Origin: Marinactinospora thermotolerans DSM 45154
GTDB taxonomy: Bacteria > Actinomycetota > Actinomycetes > Streptosporangiales > Streptosporangiaceae
Length of the DNA stretch: 64,000 nucleotides
Assembly: GCF_900167435.1 (NCBI RefSeq)
Contig: NZ_FUWS01000011.1
Span: 1-64,000 of the forward strand
Direction: 5' to 3'
The position numbers were made by a program, and so were the translations under genes. The notes beneath the pieces are model-generated. The model searched no databases. It saw only the letters and a list, made by a program, of their open reading frames with translations, and was not told the origin of the DNA. Position 1 is the first letter of the stretch, and each line of letters opens with the position of its first letter. Shown here one piece after another: positions 45,334 to 53,679 of the stretch.

Positions 45334-45407
45334 GCCGCCTTAGCTCAGTCGGCCAGAGCGACGCACTCGTAATGCGTAGGTCGTCGGTTCGATTCCGACA
45401 GGCGGCT
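45334..45407 (+). tRNA. tRNA-Thr (anticodon CGT)
   Basis: A 74-base tRNA: acceptor GCCGCCT/AGGCGGC, D arm TAGCTCAGTCGGCCAGAGC, anticodon loop CTCGTAA giving CGT for ACG codons, and T arm GTCGGTTCGATTCCGAC. No CCA is encoded. A TTAGACT -10-like box lies at 45299-45305. Its 3' 43 bases are part of the left attachment site of the integrated element, so insertion kept the tRNA intact. Confidence 0.95.
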
Positions 45408-45408
45408 C
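45365..45408. repeat. Left attachment site (attL) of the integrated element
   Basis: 44 bases identical to 53346-53389, running from the anticodon arm of tRNA-Thr to just past its 3' end. Position and length are typical of tRNA-targeting tyrosine integrases. The integrase gene is adjacent. Confidence 0.93.
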
Positions 45409-45414
45409 CCAGGT

Positions 45415-45450
45415 CAAAGGGCCTCTCCCGCACTCGGGAGAGGCCCTTTG
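45415..45450. terminator. 16-bp perfect hairpin between attL and integrase
   Basis: CAAAGGGCCTCTCCCG (45415-45430) and its exact complement (45435-45450) enclose the loop CACT. It terminates tRNA-Thr on the + strand and integrase transcripts on the - strand, insulating the element from the chromosome. Confidence 0.8.
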
Positions 45451-45469
45451 CTAACACCCTTGCTAACAC
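45449..45469. repeat. Candidate integrase arm-binding sites, left end
   Basis: TGCTAACAC occurs at 45449-45457 and 45461-45469, 12 bases apart. The same motif pair with the same spacing is at the right end (53221-53241). Confidence 0.7.
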
Positions 45470-45473
45470 GCGC

Positions 45474-46658
45474 TCAGCCGTCGGCGAGCGCCTGGGCGAA
45501 GACCTCGGCCGCCGCCGTCTCGGCGTCGCGCACCACGTGCGCGTAGACCCGCAACGTGATCGCCGGATCGGCGTGTCCCAACCGAGCCGCCACCACATGG
45601 ACCGGAACGCCCGCCATGAGCAGCGTTGTCGCGTGCAGGTGCCGCAGGTCGTGCAGCCGGGCGGGCGGCAGCGGTTCGGCCGGAGCCGGACGGTCGGTCG
45701 GCGCGTTGTACACCCTGGTGAAGGTGCGGAACAGCCCGGTCACCGTGTCCGGGTAGACCGGCTCACCCCACGCCGTGGTGAACACGTAGCCGTTGGGTTC
45801 GCCGCGCCATTCCTCCCCGGCCGTCTCGGCCTCCTCGCACTGCCGAACGCGGTGCACGCGCAGCACCCCCGCCGTTTCGGCGTCGATGGTCACCACCCGG
45901 GACCGGCCGCTCTTGGTGGTGCCCTCCACCCGGACCCCGCTGATCACCGCCGTGGAGCCGGTGATGGTGATGCGCCGGCCGTCGAGGTCGACGTCAGGCC
46001 ACCGCAGGTGCAGCAGCTCACCCCGACGCGCCCCGGTGTAGGCCGCCAGGTGGAAGAACGCGAACAGGCGATGCCCGCGCGCGACCTCCAGGAAGGCCCG
46101 CAGTTGCGCTTTGGTCCAGACGTCACCCACCTCCCGGTAGACGTCCCGAGGCCGTTTAGCCCGCTCCACGGGGTTGTTGGGAAGGAGTTGTTCGACCTCT
46201 ACGGCGTCGCGGAACGCCTTGCGCAGCACGGCATGCAGGTGGGTCACCGTGCTCACCGCCAGCGGACGACCGCCCTTGCCGCCGCGAGCCCGCAGATCCA
46301 GGTAGAGCCTGGTGAACGTGGACGGCCGCAGCGCCTGGACCTTCACCGACCCGATGCGCGGCAGCACGTACAGCCGAAGGCAGTTGCGGTAGTCGTCGAG
46401 TGTGCGCGGCTTGACCTCCATCGCGTGCCCGTCCAGCCATTCGGCGAGGTAGTCCGCCACGGTCAGGTCAGAGCGTTCGATGTACTCGCCGCGACGGGCC
46501 TTGAACCGCGCTTCGTCACGGGCGGCTTTGGCTTCGTCTTCGGTGGCGAAGCCGCCGACCCACTTGGGTTTGCTCACCCCGGTTTCCGGATCGGGTACGC
46601 GAATGACGTAGGACCAGGTCTTGCCGCGTTTCATCACGCCATCGCGGAGCTTGCCCAT
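45474..46658 (-). CDS. int: Site-specific tyrosine integrase
   Basis: A 394-residue phage-type tyrosine recombinase. An N-terminal arm-binding domain (GKTWSYVIRVPDPETGVSKP) is followed by a SAM-like core-binding domain (TVADYLAEWLDGHAMEVKPR, TLDDYRNCLRLYVLPRIG). The catalytic residues are R211 (AYTGARRGELL), H336 and R339 (HDLRHLHAT), H362 (LGHA) and the nucleophile Y372 (ITLRVYAHV). Its start overlaps the excisionase stop (TGATG), so the two are coupled. It lies beside attL and should catalyse insertion at the tRNA-Thr 3' end. Confidence 0.95.
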   Translation of the reverse strand: MGKLRDGVMKRGKTWSYVIRVPDPETGVSKPKWVGGFATEDEAKAARDEARFKARRGEYIERSDLTVADYLAEWLDGHAMEVKPRTLDDYRNCLRLYVLPRIGSVKVQALRPSTFTRLYLDLRARGGKGGRPLAVSTVTHLHAVLRKAFRDAVEVEQLLPNNPVERAKRPRDVYREVGDVWTKAQLRAFLEVARGHRLFAFFHLAAYTGARRGELLHLRWPDVDLDGRRITITGSTAVISGVRVEGTTKSGRSRVVTIDAETAGVLRVHRVRQCEEAETAGEEWRGEPNGYVFTTAWGEPVYPDTVTGLFRTFTRVYNAPTDRPAPAEPLPPARLHDLRHLHATTLLMAGVPVHVVAARLGHADPAITLRVYAHVVRDAETAAAEVFAQALADG

Positions 46659-46852
46659 CAGGCCGCCTCCTTCTGGTCGAGGAGCCCGGAGACGTAGTCG
46701 TTCAGCGCCGAGACGGGGATACGGCGGGAACCGCCGATGCGCAGTGAGCGGACCTCTCCGGAGGCGAGTAGTTCGTAGAGCTTGCTCCGGGAGACCGCCA
46801 GCATGCGCGCGGCTTCGGGAACGGTGAGGAGGAGACGCGGGGGGTTGGTCAT
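46658..46852 (-). CDS. xis: Excisionase / MerR-type helix-turn-helix DNA-binding protein
   Basis: A 64-residue protein: LLLTVPEAARMLAVSRSKLY, ELLASGEVRSLRIGGSRRIP, VSALNDYV. This is the excisionase-family HTH common to AICE Xis proteins. It lies between rep and int, overlapping rep's 3' end by four bases and int's start by one. It should bend DNA at attL/attR to drive excision. Confidence 0.92.
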   Translation of the reverse strand: MTNPPRLLLTVPEAARMLAVSRSKLYELLASGEVRSLRIGGSRRIPVSALNDYVSGLLDQKEAA

Positions 46853-48531
46853 GCTGCCCTGCCTTCACTGCTTGCCGAAAGACTGGATTGCCGTGCCACG
46901 TCGAGTTGGGCGCGGCGTTTGAGGGCTTCGCCGACGGCGCGCAGGAGGCGGTGTTCGCGGGGTGGGACGTCGGGATCGGTGGGGCGTGCCAGCTCCCAGG
47001 CGTGGCCGTTGCCGGTGACCGCGAAGGGGAGGGCCGGTCGTTGGGTCCCGTCGCGGTGATCGGGGTTGTCCGGGTCGATGCCGAGGGTGTTGAGGACCCA
47101 GGTGAGGCGGTCGGCTTTGTGGTCGGCGAGGGTTTTGCCGGACCATTTGCGGGAGACCAGGACGCGGCGTCCGGCGTAGCCGAGGTGTTCGCGGCGGTGG
47201 GCTTTGGAGCGGCAGAAGCCGGGGCGTAGGCCGGCCTTGGCGTTCTTGGGTTGGATGCCGTAGCGCAGCCAGTTCGCACAGCGCGGCGAGCAGGGCTCGA
47301 ACCGCAGCGCTTCCACCAGCCGGTCGACGTGCCGTTCCTGCGCCGCAGACTCGACCTGGTGGCATTCCGCGATGTCCTTGGTCAGGTACTTGGCCAGGTA
47401 GCGCACGCACCGGTCCGCATCCTCTGAACCCGCGAGGACGCCCTTGGTGTCGACCTGGGGGCCGAACCGGCACACGTGGTGCGGTTCCGCATCCGGGTCG
47501 TCGTCCAGGGCGTCCAGAGCCTCATCCCAGGACGGCAGCACCTCACCCGTCACCGGATCGACGTAGACGCCGGTGTCCTCATCCCAGACAGGCAGGCGCT
47601 CCCCCTCGTAGACGACCTCATCAGCGTTGGGCCACCACACCTGGTGGTAGGTGGCCGCCGCGATCTGCCGCAACTCAGCGCGCGGAATCGTGCCCCGGAT
47701 CGCCATGTGCAGGTGCGGGGCGAGACGCCGCTGCGGCTCCACCGTGGCGAAGTACTGCACCTCGAAGCCGGCCACCCGGCGCAGGTTCTGCACGAACCGG
47801 TCGATGAGCTTGGAGAAGTGCAGGGCGTCGCGCGCGGCCCGCCGGTAGTCATAGGTGGCCGGATCCACCGGTGTTCCGTCGGAGCGCACGCGCCCGTAGG
47901 AGTCCAACGTCAACGTGACGAACAGCGAGGGACGGAACACCTTCCCGCTTTCCGGGTCGGTGAAGGCCCGGCCGATGGTGCGCCGGGTCATGGGCCGTTT
48001 GGGCAGGTCGGGCGCGTCGGAGCGGCGCCGGGTCGAGCGCGTCCGGCGTGGCCGGGGCGAGGAGGAGGCCGAGCGGGTCACCGAACCGCGCAGGCCCGAG
48101 GCGGTGATCTCCTCATCCAGGTCGGCGATCGCCGCGTCCAGGGCTTGGAGTTCCTCGGGACCGGTGGTGCCGGTGGCGGCGAGGCGGTCGCGTTCGGCGG
48201 TGACCACGGCCCGCTGTTCGACCCAGGAGCGTTGGGCTTGGGAAGGCGGGTCGGGTTCCACCACCGGTTCAGTGGTCAGGTGCCAGCCCTCTTCACACTG
48301 GGTGCGGCGAAGCGATCGCTTGCGCCGGGCACAGGCCGGACACCGGGATTCCAGGGTGGAGCCGCAGGGCACGTCGATGATCTCGGTGCGGCCCGAAGCG
48401 AGGTCGGTGCGGCGCAGGGTGACGGGACGGACGCACACCCCATGGTCGGCGGCGACCTGTTCGGCCACCTCACGGGCCAGCGGTTGCGCGAGCCGTTCGG
48501 CGCGGGTGGATTTACCCGTGGGAGTCGGCAT
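46849..48531 (-). CDS. repSA: Rolling-circle replication initiator (RepSA-like)
   Basis: A 560-residue replication initiator. A Cys cluster (C56, C64-x2-C67) precedes a linker rich in Arg/Ser. The HUH endonuclease core has VFRPSLFVTLTLDSYGRV, the metal-binding HLH in LAPHLHMAIRG (273-275) and the catalytic Tyr region VRYLAKYLTKD (Tyr at about 378 and 382). This layout is the RepSA family of AICEs. It nicks the element's origin for replication after excision. Its start directly abuts the tra stop; the downstream xis overlaps its 3' end. Confidence 0.92.
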   Translation of the reverse strand: MPTPTGKSTRAERLAQPLAREVAEQVAADHGVCVRPVTLRRTDLASGRTEIIDVPCGSTLESRCPACARRKRSLRRTQCEEGWHLTTEPVVEPDPPSQAQRSWVEQRAVVTAERDRLAATGTTGPEELQALDAAIADLDEEITASGLRGSVTRSASSSPRPRRTRSTRRRSDAPDLPKRPMTRRTIGRAFTDPESGKVFRPSLFVTLTLDSYGRVRSDGTPVDPATYDYRRAARDALHFSKLIDRFVQNLRRVAGFEVQYFATVEPQRRLAPHLHMAIRGTIPRAELRQIAAATYHQVWWPNADEVVYEGERLPVWDEDTGVYVDPVTGEVLPSWDEALDALDDDPDAEPHHVCRFGPQVDTKGVLAGSEDADRCVRYLAKYLTKDIAECHQVESAAQERHVDRLVEALRFEPCSPRCANWLRYGIQPKNAKAGLRPGFCRSKAHRREHLGYAGRRVLVSRKWSGKTLADHKADRLTWVLNTLGIDPDNPDHRDGTQRPALPFAVTGNGHAWELARPTDPDVPPREHRLLRAVGEALKRRAQLDVARQSSLSASSEGRAA

Positions 48532-49971
48532 CTACGCGGCCCCCTCGTCCGAGACCGGGCGCAAGGGCGCAGCACCATACTCGGTCACCATGGTGTCGAT
48601 GTCGTCGTCACAGACGTAGGCCGCTCGGACCCGGACCGGGATCGGCGAGCCCTCCACGCGGACGAAGGCCACGCCGGGAAGGTCCGGGTCGATCAGATGG
48701 GCGTTGGCCCCGCGCTCCCGCGCGCCCTCACCCAGCACCATGTCGACCTGCGAGGCTTCGTCCAGGCGCAGGGCGATCTTGTCGGGGAAGAGGTTGCGCA
48801 GGTTCATGACCTCCTTGCGCGGGTCCTGCAACGCGGCGAGGACGCAGAACCCCACCGACCGGCCCTGTGAGGTGAGGGTGGCGATGGCGTTCTCGGCACG
48901 CCGCCGCACATCGCGGTCGGGGTGGTAGGCGGTCAAAAACGCCACCTCGTCCAGCACCACCACCACGAACGGATCATCGACGGTCGGAACGTGGGCGCGT
49001 TGGCGGCCGGCGTAGCGTTCAGCCCGATCCTGCATGCCGGCCACGGCCGTCTCCAGCAAGGCCACCGCCGTTTCCCCGGTGTCGGCGTAACGGGCGAACA
49101 GGCCCCGGCCGTAGGACAGCTCCATCCGTTTGGGATCCACCGCCCACACCTGCGCCGTCCCGTCTCGCACAGCGGGCGACATCGCGCGAATCACCGACCA
49201 CAACACCGAACCCTTACCGGCCCCCGTGACGCCGACGACCAGGACATGGGTGCCGTGCAGACGCAGGTGCCAGGGCTCACCGTCCTCCCGCCGGCCCACG
49301 GGCAGCGCCGCGAGATCCGGATCCCTCGGTATGGGCAGGGCGTCGAGGGGGTCGGCGAGGGTGTCGTGGCGGGGGAACTCCAGCACCACGTCCCGGGGGC
49401 CGAGGACCGTCACCCGGCAGGAGGCCGCGCCGAACCCATGGGCGAGTTCGGCCACCCGCTGCTCGACGTCGGCGGGGGCGGTGCCGGCCACCAGGCGCAC
49501 CCGTACCCGGTCGGCCCACGACGAGCACGTCACCTTGCGGATACGGGGAAGGTAGCGGCGTTCCTGGTAGGACTCGGCCAGCCCGGCCACGACGAGGACG
49601 GGTTGCCAATGCCGCCGGTAGACCGTGATCCACCGCCACGCCGCCAGGACCCGCAACGCCACCAGACGGTGGAAGGACAGCGGCCAGCGAGTCCGCCAGG
49701 TGAGCAGGACCGAAGTCGCCGCGATCACCGTGACGGTCAGGCCCACCGTTCCGAACAGGTAGCCGGTTGTGGTGAGGGCGGCCGTCGAGCCCACGGCGAC
49801 GGGGAAGCGGATCGGGGCCAGGACCAGGACGCGGAGCAGACGGATGATCCAGGAGGCCAGGACGAAGATCCCGGGCGTCTCGACCACGGGGGTGGAGAAG
49901 CGGAAGGCCTGCGCGGGCATGGGCAGGGTCGGTGGTGTCTGGGCAGCGCCGGCGTGGTTGTTGCGCAGCAT
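48532..49971 (-). CDS. tra: FtsK/SpoIIIE-type conjugal transfer protein (TraSA-like)
   Basis: A 479-residue DNA translocase. Two N-terminal membrane segments (WIIRLLRVLVLAPIRFPVAV, TTGYLFGTVGLTVTVIAATS) are followed by an FtsK ATPase domain with Walker A GVTGAGKGSV (about 247-256), Walker B FVVVVLDEVAFL (D341 E342) and a sensor ALQDPRKEVMNLRNLFPDKI. In AICEs a single protein of this type moves double-stranded DNA between hyphae. It sits between the activator-like gene and rep in one operon. Confidence 0.93.
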   Translation of the reverse strand: MLRNNHAGAAQTPPTLPMPAQAFRFSTPVVETPGIFVLASWIIRLLRVLVLAPIRFPVAVGSTAALTTTGYLFGTVGLTVTVIAATSVLLTWRTRWPLSFHRLVALRVLAAWRWITVYRRHWQPVLVVAGLAESYQERRYLPRIRKVTCSSWADRVRVRLVAGTAPADVEQRVAELAHGFGAASCRVTVLGPRDVVLEFPRHDTLADPLDALPIPRDPDLAALPVGRREDGEPWHLRLHGTHVLVVGVTGAGKGSVLWSVIRAMSPAVRDGTAQVWAVDPKRMELSYGRGLFARYADTGETAVALLETAVAGMQDRAERYAGRQRAHVPTVDDPFVVVVLDEVAFLTAYHPDRDVRRRAENAIATLTSQGRSVGFCVLAALQDPRKEVMNLRNLFPDKIALRLDEASQVDMVLGEGARERGANAHLIDPDLPGVAFVRVEGSPIPVRVRAAYVCDDDIDTMVTEYGAAPLRPVSDEGAA

Positions 49972-50089
49972 AAGCTGGACACACCTCTCTCGTGTTCGTG
50001 CGAGGGCAATCGCGTAGCGGGAGGGGGTATTGGGGGCGGCTCATGGTGTTGGCGCACCAGGCCGCCCCGCTTCACATCCGGGGTCAGGG

Positions 50090-50509
50090 TCAGGCAGCGG
50101 TGTCCTTCGCGCCGGAGGCGGTCGGGACCTTGCGTGAGGACGAGGCGCCGGGGGTCTTCACACCCTTGGCGCGCAGCGAGTAGGCCACCCGGGGATGGCG
50201 CCCGTTGTCGTCGACGTAGGGCATGACCGACATGGACTCGAACTCCACCGGCCGGAACGGCAGCCCCGGTACCTCGTCCGGCAGGGTGGGGCAGACCTCG
50301 GAGGCCACCTTGACCTTCACGCTCTTGGCCTTGCCGCGCGCCTCGGGGTCGGCGTCGATCACATCAACGGACCACAGCGGCAGGCCGGTGGCCCTGTCGG
50401 TCTGGGGACGCTTGGTCTCGAAGTCGGTGATCGCCTCCACCCCGAGCGCATAGCAGCCGTGCGGGAACACCGTTGTGAACTCCACCGGGATCGCGCCCTG
50501 AATCGCCAT
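50090..50509 (-). CDS. Plasmid replication, integration and excision activator-like protein
   Basis: A 139-residue protein of a family that is regularly found upstream of tra in AICEs and annotated as a replication/integration/excision activator: MAIQGAIPVEFTTVFPHGCY, ALGVEAITDFETKRPQTDR, LPLWSVDVIDADPEARGKAK, LPFRPVEFESMSVMPYVDD. No helix-turn-helix is obvious, so the activator label rests on family knowledge only. AAGGAGG precedes the ATG. It is the first gene of the leftward operon, with a good promoter at 50611-50639. Confidence 0.75.
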   Translation of the reverse strand: MAIQGAIPVEFTTVFPHGCYALGVEAITDFETKRPQTDRATGLPLWSVDVIDADPEARGKAKSVKVKVASEVCPTLPDEVPGLPFRPVEFESMSVMPYVDDNGRHPRVAYSLRAKGVKTPGASSSRKVPTASGAKDTAA

Positions 50510-50610
50510 CGACAACCTCCTTAAATCGGCGCCCGACCAGGCCGGACGCATACGAAAGCGTGTGGGACATCGCCCCTTCCAGACACGGAAGGTGAGCGGC
50601 GATGACCCAC

Positions 50611-50639
50611 ACGCTAAACCGTACTTTTAGTTTTGTCTA
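50611..50639 (-). promoter_or_regulatory. Promoter of the element's leftward operon
   Basis: On the - strand TAGACA (-35) and TAGCGT (-10) are separated by exactly 17 bases in an AT-rich stretch, about 100 bases before the first gene. A CTAGTACT motif (50637-50644) overlaps the -35 box and another lies at 50656-50663. Confidence 0.7.
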
Positions 50640-50663
50640 GTACTTCATGTACCACCTAGTACT
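50637..50663. promoter_or_regulatory. Paired CTAGTACT motifs, candidate repressor operator
   Basis: CTAGTACT at 50637-50644 and 50656-50663, 19 bases apart, the first overlapping the -35 box of the transfer operon promoter. Related palindromic TAGTACTA is found at 52209-52216 in front of the regulator operon. Confidence 0.55.
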
Positions 50664-51874
50664 CAGAGTGCGCCGACCCTTCGCGCGAGCGCGTGCAACG
50701 CGGGACCGGGAGGGTCCTGAATCGTCAGCAGATCCCCGATCGCCTGCCGCACCAATGGGTGGGTGTGCACCTGTTCGGGAGTGACCTCTTCGGCTCGCTC
50801 CAGCGTGGACACCGCCTGATCGACGTTGCGACGCTGGAGGTGAGCCCGTGCGACGTCGATGAGGAAGCGCCCTTGCCGCTCCGCGGACAGCCCCGAGGCG
50901 TCGACCCCTTCGGCCGCCCGCAGGGCGACGCCGGCGTCCCCCAGCTCCACCGCGACGGCGACCTCATGGAGCGCGACGTTGGTCAACCCGAACTCGGTGT
51001 TGTAGTCGTTGCGCTCGGTCCCGATGCGTTCAGCCACCGACCGGGCGTGCGCGATGTTGCGGTAGGCGGCGGTCGCGTCGTTGCGCCGAGCTGCGGCCAC
51101 GGCCCGTTGCAAGGTCAAAGCGCCGAAGATTGACATCGCCTCCGGATCCCCACCGCCTTCGGCCAGGGGAGACAGCGCCTCGCAGGCGGTCCCGGCGGTC
51201 GCCTCCACCTGATCGAAGTGACGCGCTCCCTGGAAGGTCAGGCAGAGCCGGAACTCCCCGGCCGCCATGAGCAGCGGGTCACCGGCCCGCTCCGCCGCCG
51301 TGATGGCGCGGTCCGCAGCGATCCAGGCCGCCTCGAACTCGCCCATCTTGGTCAGCGCCGAGGAGCACGCCTGATAGGTGGCGTTGAGGAGCCGGAACAG
51401 TTCCACGCGATCCCCGTTGGGCACCGCCCGCGCCGCAGCCTCCAGGGTGGGGATCAGCGACTCCAGCTCTTCGGTCAGCTCCAGATAGCGGCTCTCGTGA
51501 GTCAGGGTCCAGGCGCGTTCCACCCGTCGACCCAGTTCCGCCACGTCGACGGGTTCGTGGTCCGCGCGCAGCATGGCGCTCAGAGCGTGCGCGCCACTGA
51601 GGACCAGGCGCAGACGACTGTTTCCCGGCGTCTCCTCCGCAGTCGAGGCGACGATGGGCGCTTCGGCGGCGAGGTCGCTCAGCGGCACCTCAAGGACGTC
51701 GGCGATGATCTCCAGCACCGACATCCGGTCGATCTTGCGCACCCCGCGTTCGACCTGGGATACCCACGCCTCCGATCGGCCGACACGGCCCGCGAACTCA
51801 CGTTGGGACAGCCCGCGCCGCTTGCGGTACTTGGCGATCTTGCGCCCGAGTGCCCGCTGGTAGTCCTCGCTCAC
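50663..51874 (-). CDS. XRE-family regulator with TPR-like C-terminal domain
   Basis: A 403-residue protein. The HTH_3 domain is LGRKIAKYRKRRGLSQREFA, GRVGRSEAWVSQVERGVRKI. The remaining ~320 residues are helical repeats (ELFRLLNATYQACSSALTKM, GEFEAAWIAADRAITAAERA, IDVARAHLQRRNVDQAVSTL) typical of TPR-containing signal-responsive regulators. It is placed as the KorSA-like regulator is in pSAM2 and probably silences the transfer operon, possibly by binding the CTAGTACT/TAGTACTA motifs. The ABM gene upstream overlaps it by ATGA. Confidence 0.88.
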   Translation of the reverse strand: MSEDYQRALGRKIAKYRKRRGLSQREFAGRVGRSEAWVSQVERGVRKIDRMSVLEIIADVLEVPLSDLAAEAPIVASTAEETPGNSRLRLVLSGAHALSAMLRADHEPVDVAELGRRVERAWTLTHESRYLELTEELESLIPTLEAAARAVPNGDRVELFRLLNATYQACSSALTKMGEFEAAWIAADRAITAAERAGDPLLMAAGEFRLCLTFQGARHFDQVEATAGTACEALSPLAEGGGDPEAMSIFGALTLQRAVAAARRNDATAAYRNIAHARSVAERIGTERNDYNTEFGLTNVALHEVAVAVELGDAGVALRAAEGVDASGLSAERQGRFLIDVARAHLQRRNVDQAVSTLERAEEVTPEQVHTHPLVRQAIGDLLTIQDPPGPALHALARRVGAL

Positions 51875-52179
51875 CCGGACACGCCCTTGCCATCCTGGAG
51901 AGCCAGGAAGTCCACCTCGAAGGTGTCGAGGTAGGCGCCGCGCGCCTCAAGGAACCTCTTCACATAGGGCTGTTCCTCGTGCGCGTCGAACGCGGCCCGG
52001 TCGCGGTACAGCTCGTAGAAGACGCGCTCCAGCGGCTTGCCGTCGACCTGATGCACCGCGTAGACGAGCGTGCCCGGCTCGTTCTCCCTGATGCGCGGAA
52101 GCGTCTCCGCCACCAGGCCGTCGAAGCCGGCCGCGCTCTCCGCGTCCTTCAGCGTGAATCGGACGACCAGTCCGAACAT
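51871..52179 (-). CDS. ABM-domain (antibiotic biosynthesis monooxygenase-like) protein
   Basis: A 102-residue dimeric alpha/beta-barrel protein: GLVVRFTLKDAESAAGFDGL, VAETLPRIRENEPGTLVYAV, FYELYRDRAAFDAHEEQPYV, KRFLEARGAYLDTFEVDFL. It resembles quinol monooxygenases and heme-degrading-like ABM enzymes. The E..H..YV pattern is intact. GAGGAG precedes the ATG. Co-transcription with the XRE-TPR regulator is certain from the 4-base overlap. It may sense or modify a small ligand for the regulator; this is an inference. Confidence 0.88.
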   Translation of the reverse strand: MFGLVVRFTLKDAESAAGFDGLVAETLPRIRENEPGTLVYAVHQVDGKPLERVFYELYRDRAAFDAHEEQPYVKRFLEARGAYLDTFEVDFLALQDGKGVSG

Positions 52180-52208
52180 GTGGACTCCTCAGCTTGCATG
52201 GACAGCAG

Positions 52209-52280
52209 TAGTACTAATTGTGCGCCAAACGTAGCGCCAGTAACAGATACCTCGTGTACGGTAGCCGTACTAATAATACT
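52209..52280. promoter_or_regulatory. Divergent control region with palindromes
   Basis: It contains TAGTACTA (52209-52216), GTACGG-TAG-CCGTAC (52256-52270) and TACTAATAATACTAG (52269-52283), in an AT-rich gap between the ABM/XRE operon and the HATPase gene. The shared GTAC-centred half-sites recur at 50619-50663. Confidence 0.55.
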
Positions 52281-52334
52281 AGAGACGCAGCTCAGTGTCT
52301 CTCAGGGCTGCCTGACTCGTGAGGTGAAACCAGC

Positions 52335-52760
52335 ATGTTTCGTATCAACGACCAGGATCGACCCTCCGACTCCCACTGCCGTTGGTTTCCCGGTTACCCC
52401 TCTCAGGTGGCAGCCGCCCGCTGGTTCGTCATCGACCGGCTCCACGGCTGCTCCCGTGCCGACGACGCGAGCCTTCTCGCCAGTGAGCTGGCCACCAACG
52501 CCATCCGCCACACGCGCTCACGACGCTGGCGCACCGGATTCCTGCTGACCGTCGACCACACCCCCGGACTCCGCCTGCGCGTCACCGTGCGCGACGCCGG
52601 TGCGCTGGAAACGGACAAGAAGCCCTGCGCGACCCTCCCCGCGCCCGACGCCCTACATGGGCGCGGCCTGTTCCTCGTCAACTCCATCGCGAGCCGCTGG
52701 GGCACCCGCAGGGAACACCTCGGACGCAAGACCTGGTTCGAGCTTGACTGCCACAGGTGA
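52335..52760 (+). CDS. HATPase-fold ATP-binding protein (RsbW/SpoIIAB-like)
   Basis: A 141-residue GHKL ATPase: SQVAAARWFVIDRLHGCSRA, DDASLLASELATNAIRHTRS (N box with E..N), VTVRDAGALE (G1) and LHGRGLFLVNSIASRWG (G2). This is the anti-sigma factor kinase fold found in many copies in actinobacteria. GAGGTGAAA precedes the ATG. It is the only rightward gene of the element and divergent from the regulator operon. A target sigma or anti-sigma antagonist is not in the element, so it may act on host stress signalling. Confidence 0.88.
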   Translation: MFRINDQDRPSDSHCRWFPGYPSQVAAARWFVIDRLHGCSRADDASLLASELATNAIRHTRSRRWRTGFLLTVDHTPGLRLRVTVRDAGALETDKKPCATLPAPDALHGRGLFLVNSIASRWGTRREHLGRKTWFELDCHR

Positions 52761-52907
52761 ACACCCCTGCACGGAATGTCCCTGGACCGGCGAGCGCATC
52801 CCGGAGAAGGAGAGGTGGGCACATGATCGGCCTGTTTCCACATGCGCCTCTGCGTGATGACGCCTTGAATGGCCATTCGCTGCCGAGTTGAGCTGTATGG
52901 GATCAAG

Positions 52908-52930
52908 GCGACGGCGCTTCGCGCCGTCGC
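52908..52930. repeat. 10-bp inverted repeat
   Basis: GCGACGGCGC-TTC-GCGCCGTCGC, a perfect stem with a three-base loop, seven bases left of a larger hairpin. Confidence 0.7.
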
Positions 52931-52937
52931 GATGTCT

Positions 52938-52984
52938 GGGGGTGGCTCCGGCTGCGGGCTGCCGCCCGGTCCGGAGCCACCCCC
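52938..52984. repeat. 14-bp inverted repeat, possible origin or terminator
   Basis: GGGGGTGGCTCCGG (52938-52951) and its exact complement (52971-52984) flank a 19-base GC-rich loop, followed by AAAAGG. Position in the non-coding end of a rolling-circle element fits a single-strand or double-strand origin; a terminator for the HATPase gene is the alternative. Confidence 0.65.
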
Positions 52985-53220
52985 AAAAGGCTTCTGATGC
53001 CGCTTGCCGCAGGCGACCGCCCAACCGCCGCAGTTATCGAGCTGTGGTTCCTGACGTCCTCGGGTCCCGTGGCACTCGATCGCGCGACTCTGCCTGTCTG
53101 TGGCTGAGGACTCCGGCGCGATCGAGCACCACGGACCGAGGACCGTGGTTGCCCGCCGCTGTGGTTGCCGAAATCTCGGGTGACGCAAGGCGGTCCCCAA
53201 TCCCTCGGCGTCGCCTCCCG

Positions 53221-53241
53221 TGCTAACACGGCTGCTAACAA
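53221..53241. repeat. Candidate integrase arm-binding sites, right end
   Basis: TGCTAACAC (53221-53229) and TGCTAACAA (53233-53241), 12 bases apart, same orientation and spacing as the pair at 45449-45469. Confidence 0.7.
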
Positions 53242-53345
53242 CGGCCTCGGACAGGTCTGGACAGTCCCGGAATCATCGCCCTCTCGGAAAGGCGTTCACC
53301 CAGCTCAGACACCGGACCCGGACGTCCCCGGACATCTCTCGCCAG

Positions 53346-53389
53346 ACTCGTAATGCGTAGGTCGTCGGTTCGATTCCGACAGGCGGCTC
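53346..53389. repeat. Right attachment site (attR)
   Basis: An exact 44-base copy of 45365-45408, the 3' part of tRNA-Thr without the 5' half, so it encodes no tRNA. It marks the right boundary of the integrated element. Confidence 0.93.
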
Positions 53390-53393
53390 AGGG

Positions 53394-53428
53394 AAACCCC
53401 AGGTCACATGGCGCGTGGCCTGGGGTTT
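53394..53428 (+). terminator. Original tRNA-Thr terminator, displaced by the element
   Basis: AAACCCCAGG (53394-53403) pairs with CCTGGGGTTT (53419-53428), followed by TG. It lies just after attR; before integration it would have followed tRNA-Thr directly. Confidence 0.75.
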
Positions 53429-53679
53429 TGTGTTGCTCGGGGCGTGGCGTGTCCCGCTGCCGGGGTGCCGCGACCGTGCTGAGGAGAGACCGCCAAACCC
53501 GCTCACCCGAATGCAGGGATCGCACGCATACGGGTGGCGTTCGGGCATCGACGACTCTGGCGGGGCCATTCCACAGGACGCGTGCCCAGCACTGGCCACG
53601 GTGGGGCCAGCAGATCCTGCCGAGCATGCGTCGCCGCCGTCCGCGGTCGCCGGGACGGGTGGTTCGTCCGCTTCCTCGA

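Follow-up and report, generated by a model that had tools for sequence, protein, structure and literature searches.

By published criteria, an AICE combines an integrase (Int), a replication protein (Rep) and a transfer protein (Tra), and its int gene does not lie between rep and tra (PMC3218068). Sizes quoted for members of this actinobacterial group are 10.9 kb for pSAM2 and 11.2 kb for pMR2 (PMC3364876). In pSAM2 and pACPL the attP core carries one arm repeat on each side, the printed pACPL repeat is composed of two units at a 12-bp pitch, and binding of the integrase to the arm sites has been reported for pSAM2 (PMC3364876). A further relevant system is the rolling-circle conjugative actinomycete replicon pIJ101, whose noncoding single-strand origin (sso) is known as sti (PMC4170104).

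We analyzed a 64,000-nucleotide stretch of Marinactinospora thermotolerans DSM 45154 (contig NZ_FUWS01000011.1), hereafter the window, which contains an element that is very probably a minimal, intact AICE with RepSA and TraB of pMR2-like type and with paired TGCTAACA motifs as its integrase arm sites. Specifically, a perfect 44-bp direct repeat, which corresponds to the 3′ part of tRNA-Thr(CGT), bounds a 7,981-bp unit in this tRNA gene. The preliminary description held that the repeats define the element exactly, and this is borne out by the genome, where the 44-bp core is present only at the two ends of the element. The span including both repeats is 8,025 bp, and the predicted excised circle is 7,981 bp. 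The tRNA is the sole match to Rfam, and a DNA-level comparison of the whole element with plasmid records yields no match.

The flanks of the element indicate how the tRNA locus was altered. The replacement terminator abuts the proximal arm pair, and relatives carry similar hairpins at the same place, between the tRNA and the arm pair. The sequence beyond attR is the native flank, because a relative whose tRNA-Thr 3′ flank is empty (L104) has a resembling sequence there, terminator included. Comparison with empty sites was anchored on the upstream aminotransferase gene, which stays beside tRNA-Thr(CGT) at the orthologous loci of related genomes. The downstream CYTH gene is unlinked to the tRNA in relatives and was dropped as an anchor. 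In one related genome (G043) the orthologous tRNA-Thr site is indeed empty: a terminator follows the tRNA, and the 5 kb past it yielded no gene of the element.

Table 1. Positions in the window of the features assigned to the element and its attachment locus.
Feature	Position	Strand	Basis
tRNA-Thr(CGT), attachment gene, still complete after integration	45334..45409	+	ARAGORN, Rfam
attL core, 44-bp direct repeat, anticodon loop to tRNA 3′ end	45365..45408	+	exact repeat
Terminator-like hairpin AAAGGGCCTCTCCC...GGGAGAGGCCCTTT, element-borne, putative replacement of the displaced native tRNA terminator	45416..45449		sequence; similar hairpins in relatives
Proximal arm pair TGCTAACACCCTTGCTAACA	45449..45468	+	exact motif search; comparative geometry
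Integrase, tyrosine recombinase with Arm-DNA-bind_4 N-terminal domain	45474..46658	-	PF00589 (1.7e-22), PF14659, PF14657; catalytic residues
Excisionase (Xis), HTH_17	46658..46852	-	PF12728 (2.3e-13); TIGR01764 above cut-off
RepSA rolling-circle replication initiator	46849..48531	-	PF20199 (1.2e-102); 53% to pMR2 Rep
TraB-like FtsK/SpoIIIE DNA translocase, N-terminal hydrophobic segments	48532..49971	-	PF01580, phrog_1358, Walker A/B, 43% to pMR2 Tra
Conserved 139-aa protein, no family, upstream of traB	50090..50509	-	37% to pMR2 gene product; ORF may start at 50551
XRE-family regulator, 403 aa	50663..51874	-	PF13560; phrog_5823 full length
ABM-domain protein	51871..52179	-	PF03992
HATPase_c_2 protein, divergent	52335..52760	+	PF13581
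Conserved noncoding hairpin module, stem 53067-53134; candidate rolling-circle origin (sso or dso)	53045..53170	+	alignment, covariation, RepSA linkage
Distal arm pair TGCTAACACGGCTGCTAACA	53221..53240	+	exact motif search; comparative geometry
attR core, 44-bp direct repeat	53346..53389	+	exact repeat
Native tRNA-Thr terminator, now beyond attR	53394..53429		sequence; homologous in L104

Read from attL, the genes encode the integrase, excisionase, RepSA, FtsK/TraB, the conserved 139-aa protein, the XRE regulator, the ABM protein and the HATPase, with the first seven on the minus strand and the last on the plus strand. The claim that every gene is intact agrees with eight open frames, with the domain matches and with the conserved motifs of the three central proteins: R-H-R-H-Y in the integrase, Walker A and B in TraB, and HLHM and YLAKY in RepSA. 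RepSA scores 344.8 bits against PF20199 (cut-off 34), and TraB scores 30.7 bits against PF01580 (cut-off 24). Against the stricter NCBIfam equivalog NF041214, TraB scores 32.4 bits, below the curated cut-off of 800, and judged by these scores it is a distant relative of that TraB equivalog; the NCBIfam strict equivalog cut-off is not reached by RepSA either. Comparison with solved structures links TraB to FtsK by a weak match and returns nothing relevant for RepSA. A structure model of the 139-aa protein had a mean pLDDT of 46 and was unusable. No Spd gene and no NUDIX/Pif gene is found in the element.

This gene content places the element among the AICEs, as had been proposed. A tyrosine integrase gene adjoins one att site, ending 65 bp from the attL core; a RepSA-type replication protein (PF20199) and an FtsK/SpoIIIE-type Tra (PF01580) are both present and intact; direct repeats flank the element, one of them over the 3′ end of tRNA-Thr(CGT); and int lies outside the rep-tra interval in the order int-xis-rep-tra. 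No T4SS gene occurs among the eight genes. The integrase and regulator do match phage families, as an integrated plasmid or prophage might predict, but there is scarcely any chance that the element is either of these, given that the eight genes include none for capsid, tail or packaging functions and that RepSA, an FtsK-type Tra and Int/Xis together are what defines an AICE.

The closest elements, of 11.0 kb in genome G171 and 9.2 kb in G125, occupy the same tRNA, encode integrases 95% identical to that of the window, and share int, repSA, traB, the 139-aa gene and the arm pairs with it. Their noncoding right ends, about 510 bp, are 92% (G171) and 88% (G125) identical to that of the window element. 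Together with an element of Thermobifida cellulosilytica (L041), they have in common with the window element an integrase of 71-95% identity, RepSA of ~80%, TraB of ~74% and the right-end noncoding module, although the Thermobifida element resides in tRNA-Arg. The ABM and HATPase genes of the window were not found in these three elements, and the XRE regulators of G171 and G125 are only ~31% identical to that of the window. The XRE-ABM gene pair, in several cases with an HATPase (50663-52760 in the window for all three genes), recurs elsewhere (L038, L042, L049, L053 and L251). Because it does so in elements with unrelated Tra proteins, the pair may be a regulatory or cargo cassette that moves independently, as its distribution suggests.

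Some related copies depart from this complete form. In the G125 element (L250), the xis region has apparently been deleted between repSA and int, and with the loss of xis this element is probably locked in place. A 6.7-kb relative in tRNA-Thr of G007 (L046, about 8.7-15.4 kb) has int, xis, repSA and the 139-aa gene and lacks traB, and is a possible mobilizable derivative. The source genome itself holds a relic of a second element beside tRNA-Val(TAC) (L273, 5266-9446; G000:C13, about 122.8-126.9 kb), which consists of an integrase fragment, a regulator of the XRE family (30%) and a copy, at 88%, of the hairpin listed in Table 1, with no RepSA and no TraB found. The 6.7-kb relative also bears on size: the window element had been called very small, which is true relative to pSAM2 and pMR2, but its lineage includes this smaller member.

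Judging from the integrity of its genes, mobility of the window element is plausible, and the element is probably self-transmissible. Decay among related copies, as in G125 where no xis match lies between rep and int, and in the source genome at tRNA-Val, nevertheless raises the question of whether the window element is also a non-mobile remnant that is intact only in looks, for example because it is silenced or has a hidden defect in Xis, in its origin or at clt. We consider such a remnant improbable, though not negligibly so, given that none of the eight frames is interrupted, that the catalytic motifs are conserved, that the cores are identical over 44 bp and that both arm pairs are perfect.

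The element is further distinguished by its paired motifs. The window contains exactly four copies of TGCTAACA, at 45449, 45461, 53221 and 53233, where 0.04 are expected, and these form two TGCTAACA-N4-TGCTAACA pairs, each with a start-to-start spacing of 12. Searching the whole 5.66-Mb genome with one mismatch allowed recovers only the two pairs of the element. Between pair and core lie 40 bp at attL (45409-45448) and 105 bp at attR (53241-53345). The preliminary description was therefore right about the pairs, their 12-bp spacing and the 105 bp at attR, but at attR the pair is internal to the element, where the wording could be taken to place it outside. A literature search for TGCTAACA together with integrase gave nothing that, judged by title or abstract, concerns integrase sites.

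The distribution of this pattern among relatives is best described by position. Among the 343 family genomes searched, 149 contain it, against a single match to the reversed control, a count to be read in light of the pairs having been found partly by the pattern itself and of the genomes being related and so not fully independent; because of the former, it is the position of the pairs, and not their number, that provides independent evidence. Among 147 distinct pairs in the fetched loci, 60 lie just downstream of a tRNA gene (Thr-CGT in 22, Thr-TGT in 21, Arg-ACG in 16 and Lys-TTT in one), at a distance of 37-41 bp past the gene in 28 and of 71-74 bp in 27. A tRNA 3′ fragment follows downstream of 36 pairs, in 32 cases at 95-108 bp. 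Similarly, where both ends are resolved (the window, Kribbella L039, Thermobifida L041, G007, G048 and G018), the distal gap is ~95-106 bp, and it is alike whether the target is a Thr or an Arg tRNA.

The pairs also follow the integrase. Integrases 58-79% identical to that of the window mostly have a pair with 0-2 mismatches beside their 3′ end, and the exceptions are mostly fragments or rearranged copies, whereas none of 14 integrases at 39% identity or below has such a pair. The integrase carries the arm-binding domain PF14657. A repeated site on both sides of the core tracks the integrase and not the target. Arm-type sites are expected to go with the integrase and to keep their register to the core whatever the target gene. 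The paired motifs do so, and the comparative evidence indicates that they are almost certainly integrase-binding sites of this type. The same assignment had been made for this locus earlier, and it now extends to an integrase clade with several target tRNAs at fixed core distances. Exact 10.5-bp helical phasing of the proximal distances was rejected, because an 11-bp period fits their clustering better (R 0.80) than one of 10.5 bp (R 0.66). The arm distances do group into modes separated by roughly one or three helical turns, and the phasing is no more than suggestive.

The pairs might instead be operators for the excisionase or a repressor, or clt (TraB-binding) repeats. Both are close to att sites, a location in which sites for Xis are found as well, and TraB proteins are known to bind short direct repeats. 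We regard this reading as quite unlikely, since the pair remains beside related integrases where Tra is only ~25-29% identical or has no match, is retained in the TraB-less G007 element, and has a copy at either end, at characteristic distances from the recombination core. Arms of the pSAM2 type have a 12-bp pitch as well (PMC3364876). The motif, with its spacing unchanged, also delimits the elements of a large group of relatives that is apparently undescribed. In genus g46 (about 40 genomes), the arm pair occurs in none, though RepSA homologues ~80% identical are present, and the integrase clade seems to be absent.

The conserved right end of the element holds a further noncoding feature, a long stem-loop at 53067-53134. 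In an alignment of 20 sequences, 98.2% of cells in the hairpin pair, and at four pairs both partners have changed. The covariation score, 0.147, is higher than that of any of 500 shuffles or of any slid control. Among copies identified in 201 genomes, 27 of the 42 substantial ones are 3-11 kb from a RepSA gene, and all 27 are on its upstream side in the opposite orientation; in the same search no clear copy accompanied the RepSA homologues of genus g46. Several hairpin-bearing genomes are without any arm pair and the traB-less G007 element has the hairpin, so it appears to go with replication and not with integration or transfer. Indeed, the hairpin accompanies RepSA in elements whose integrases are unrelated, and it tracks neither the integrase nor TraB. 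It thus provides RepSA elements with a specific candidate for a replication origin. Its fixed orientation, distance from rep and strong structure make a single-strand origin like pIJ101 sti its likeliest role, with a dso less so; the two are likened by role, not by sequence.

These features can be combined in a model for the inferred cycle of the element. The catalytic domain of the tyrosine integrase would bind the tRNA-Thr core, whereas its N-terminal arm-binding domain would bind the two TGCTAACA pairs of 12-bp pitch. In attP on the circle, the core would have the distal pair 105 bp away on one side and the proximal pair 40 bp away on the other. Integration would restore the tRNA and supply a new terminator, and Xis would enable excision. 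RepSA would then direct rolling-circle replication of the element, and the FtsK-like TraB would pump double-stranded DNA into the recipient.

On a broader level, we see an even chance that two propositions hold jointly. The first is that TGCTAAC(A/G)-N4-TGCTAACA characterizes the arm sites of a large integrase clade, as yet unnamed, which has shifted among at least four tRNA targets with its arm geometry fixed and its distance modes roughly whole helical turns apart. The second is that the hairpin at 53067-53134 is a so far undescribed replication origin that RepSA elements share even where their integrases are unrelated. A search with the arm motif can find the two termini of elements of this kind, even of decayed ones, and needs no model of an integrase or tRNA, and the element allows a clean test of how tyrosine integrases switch target tRNA yet keep their arm sites. 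Moreover, an element so close to a minimal and apparently complete AICE should help in building integration vectors for actinobacteria other than Streptomyces, for which few tools exist.

By identity of RepSA (53%) and Tra (43%), the closest named relative is pMR2 of Micromonospora rosaria, which likewise has the order int-xis-repSA ... tra on one strand and encodes a counterpart of the 139-aa protein (37%). The kinship does not extend to the integrase, which is only 29% identical, and no TGCTAACA pairs were found in pMR2, which at 11.2 kb carries several extra small genes relative to the 8.0-kb window element. The arms of pSAM2 and pACPL share the paired layout at 12-bp pitch, but with the sequence GTCACCCAGTTAGT(T/C)AC(C/T)CAG in place of the motif of the window, which on comparison is a different sequence on a known arm-site architecture. 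The element is an additional, small representative of a known kind of actinobacterial AICE; with the architecture already known, what it adds is an arm-site signature for an integrase clade of wide occurrence, along with a candidate origin.
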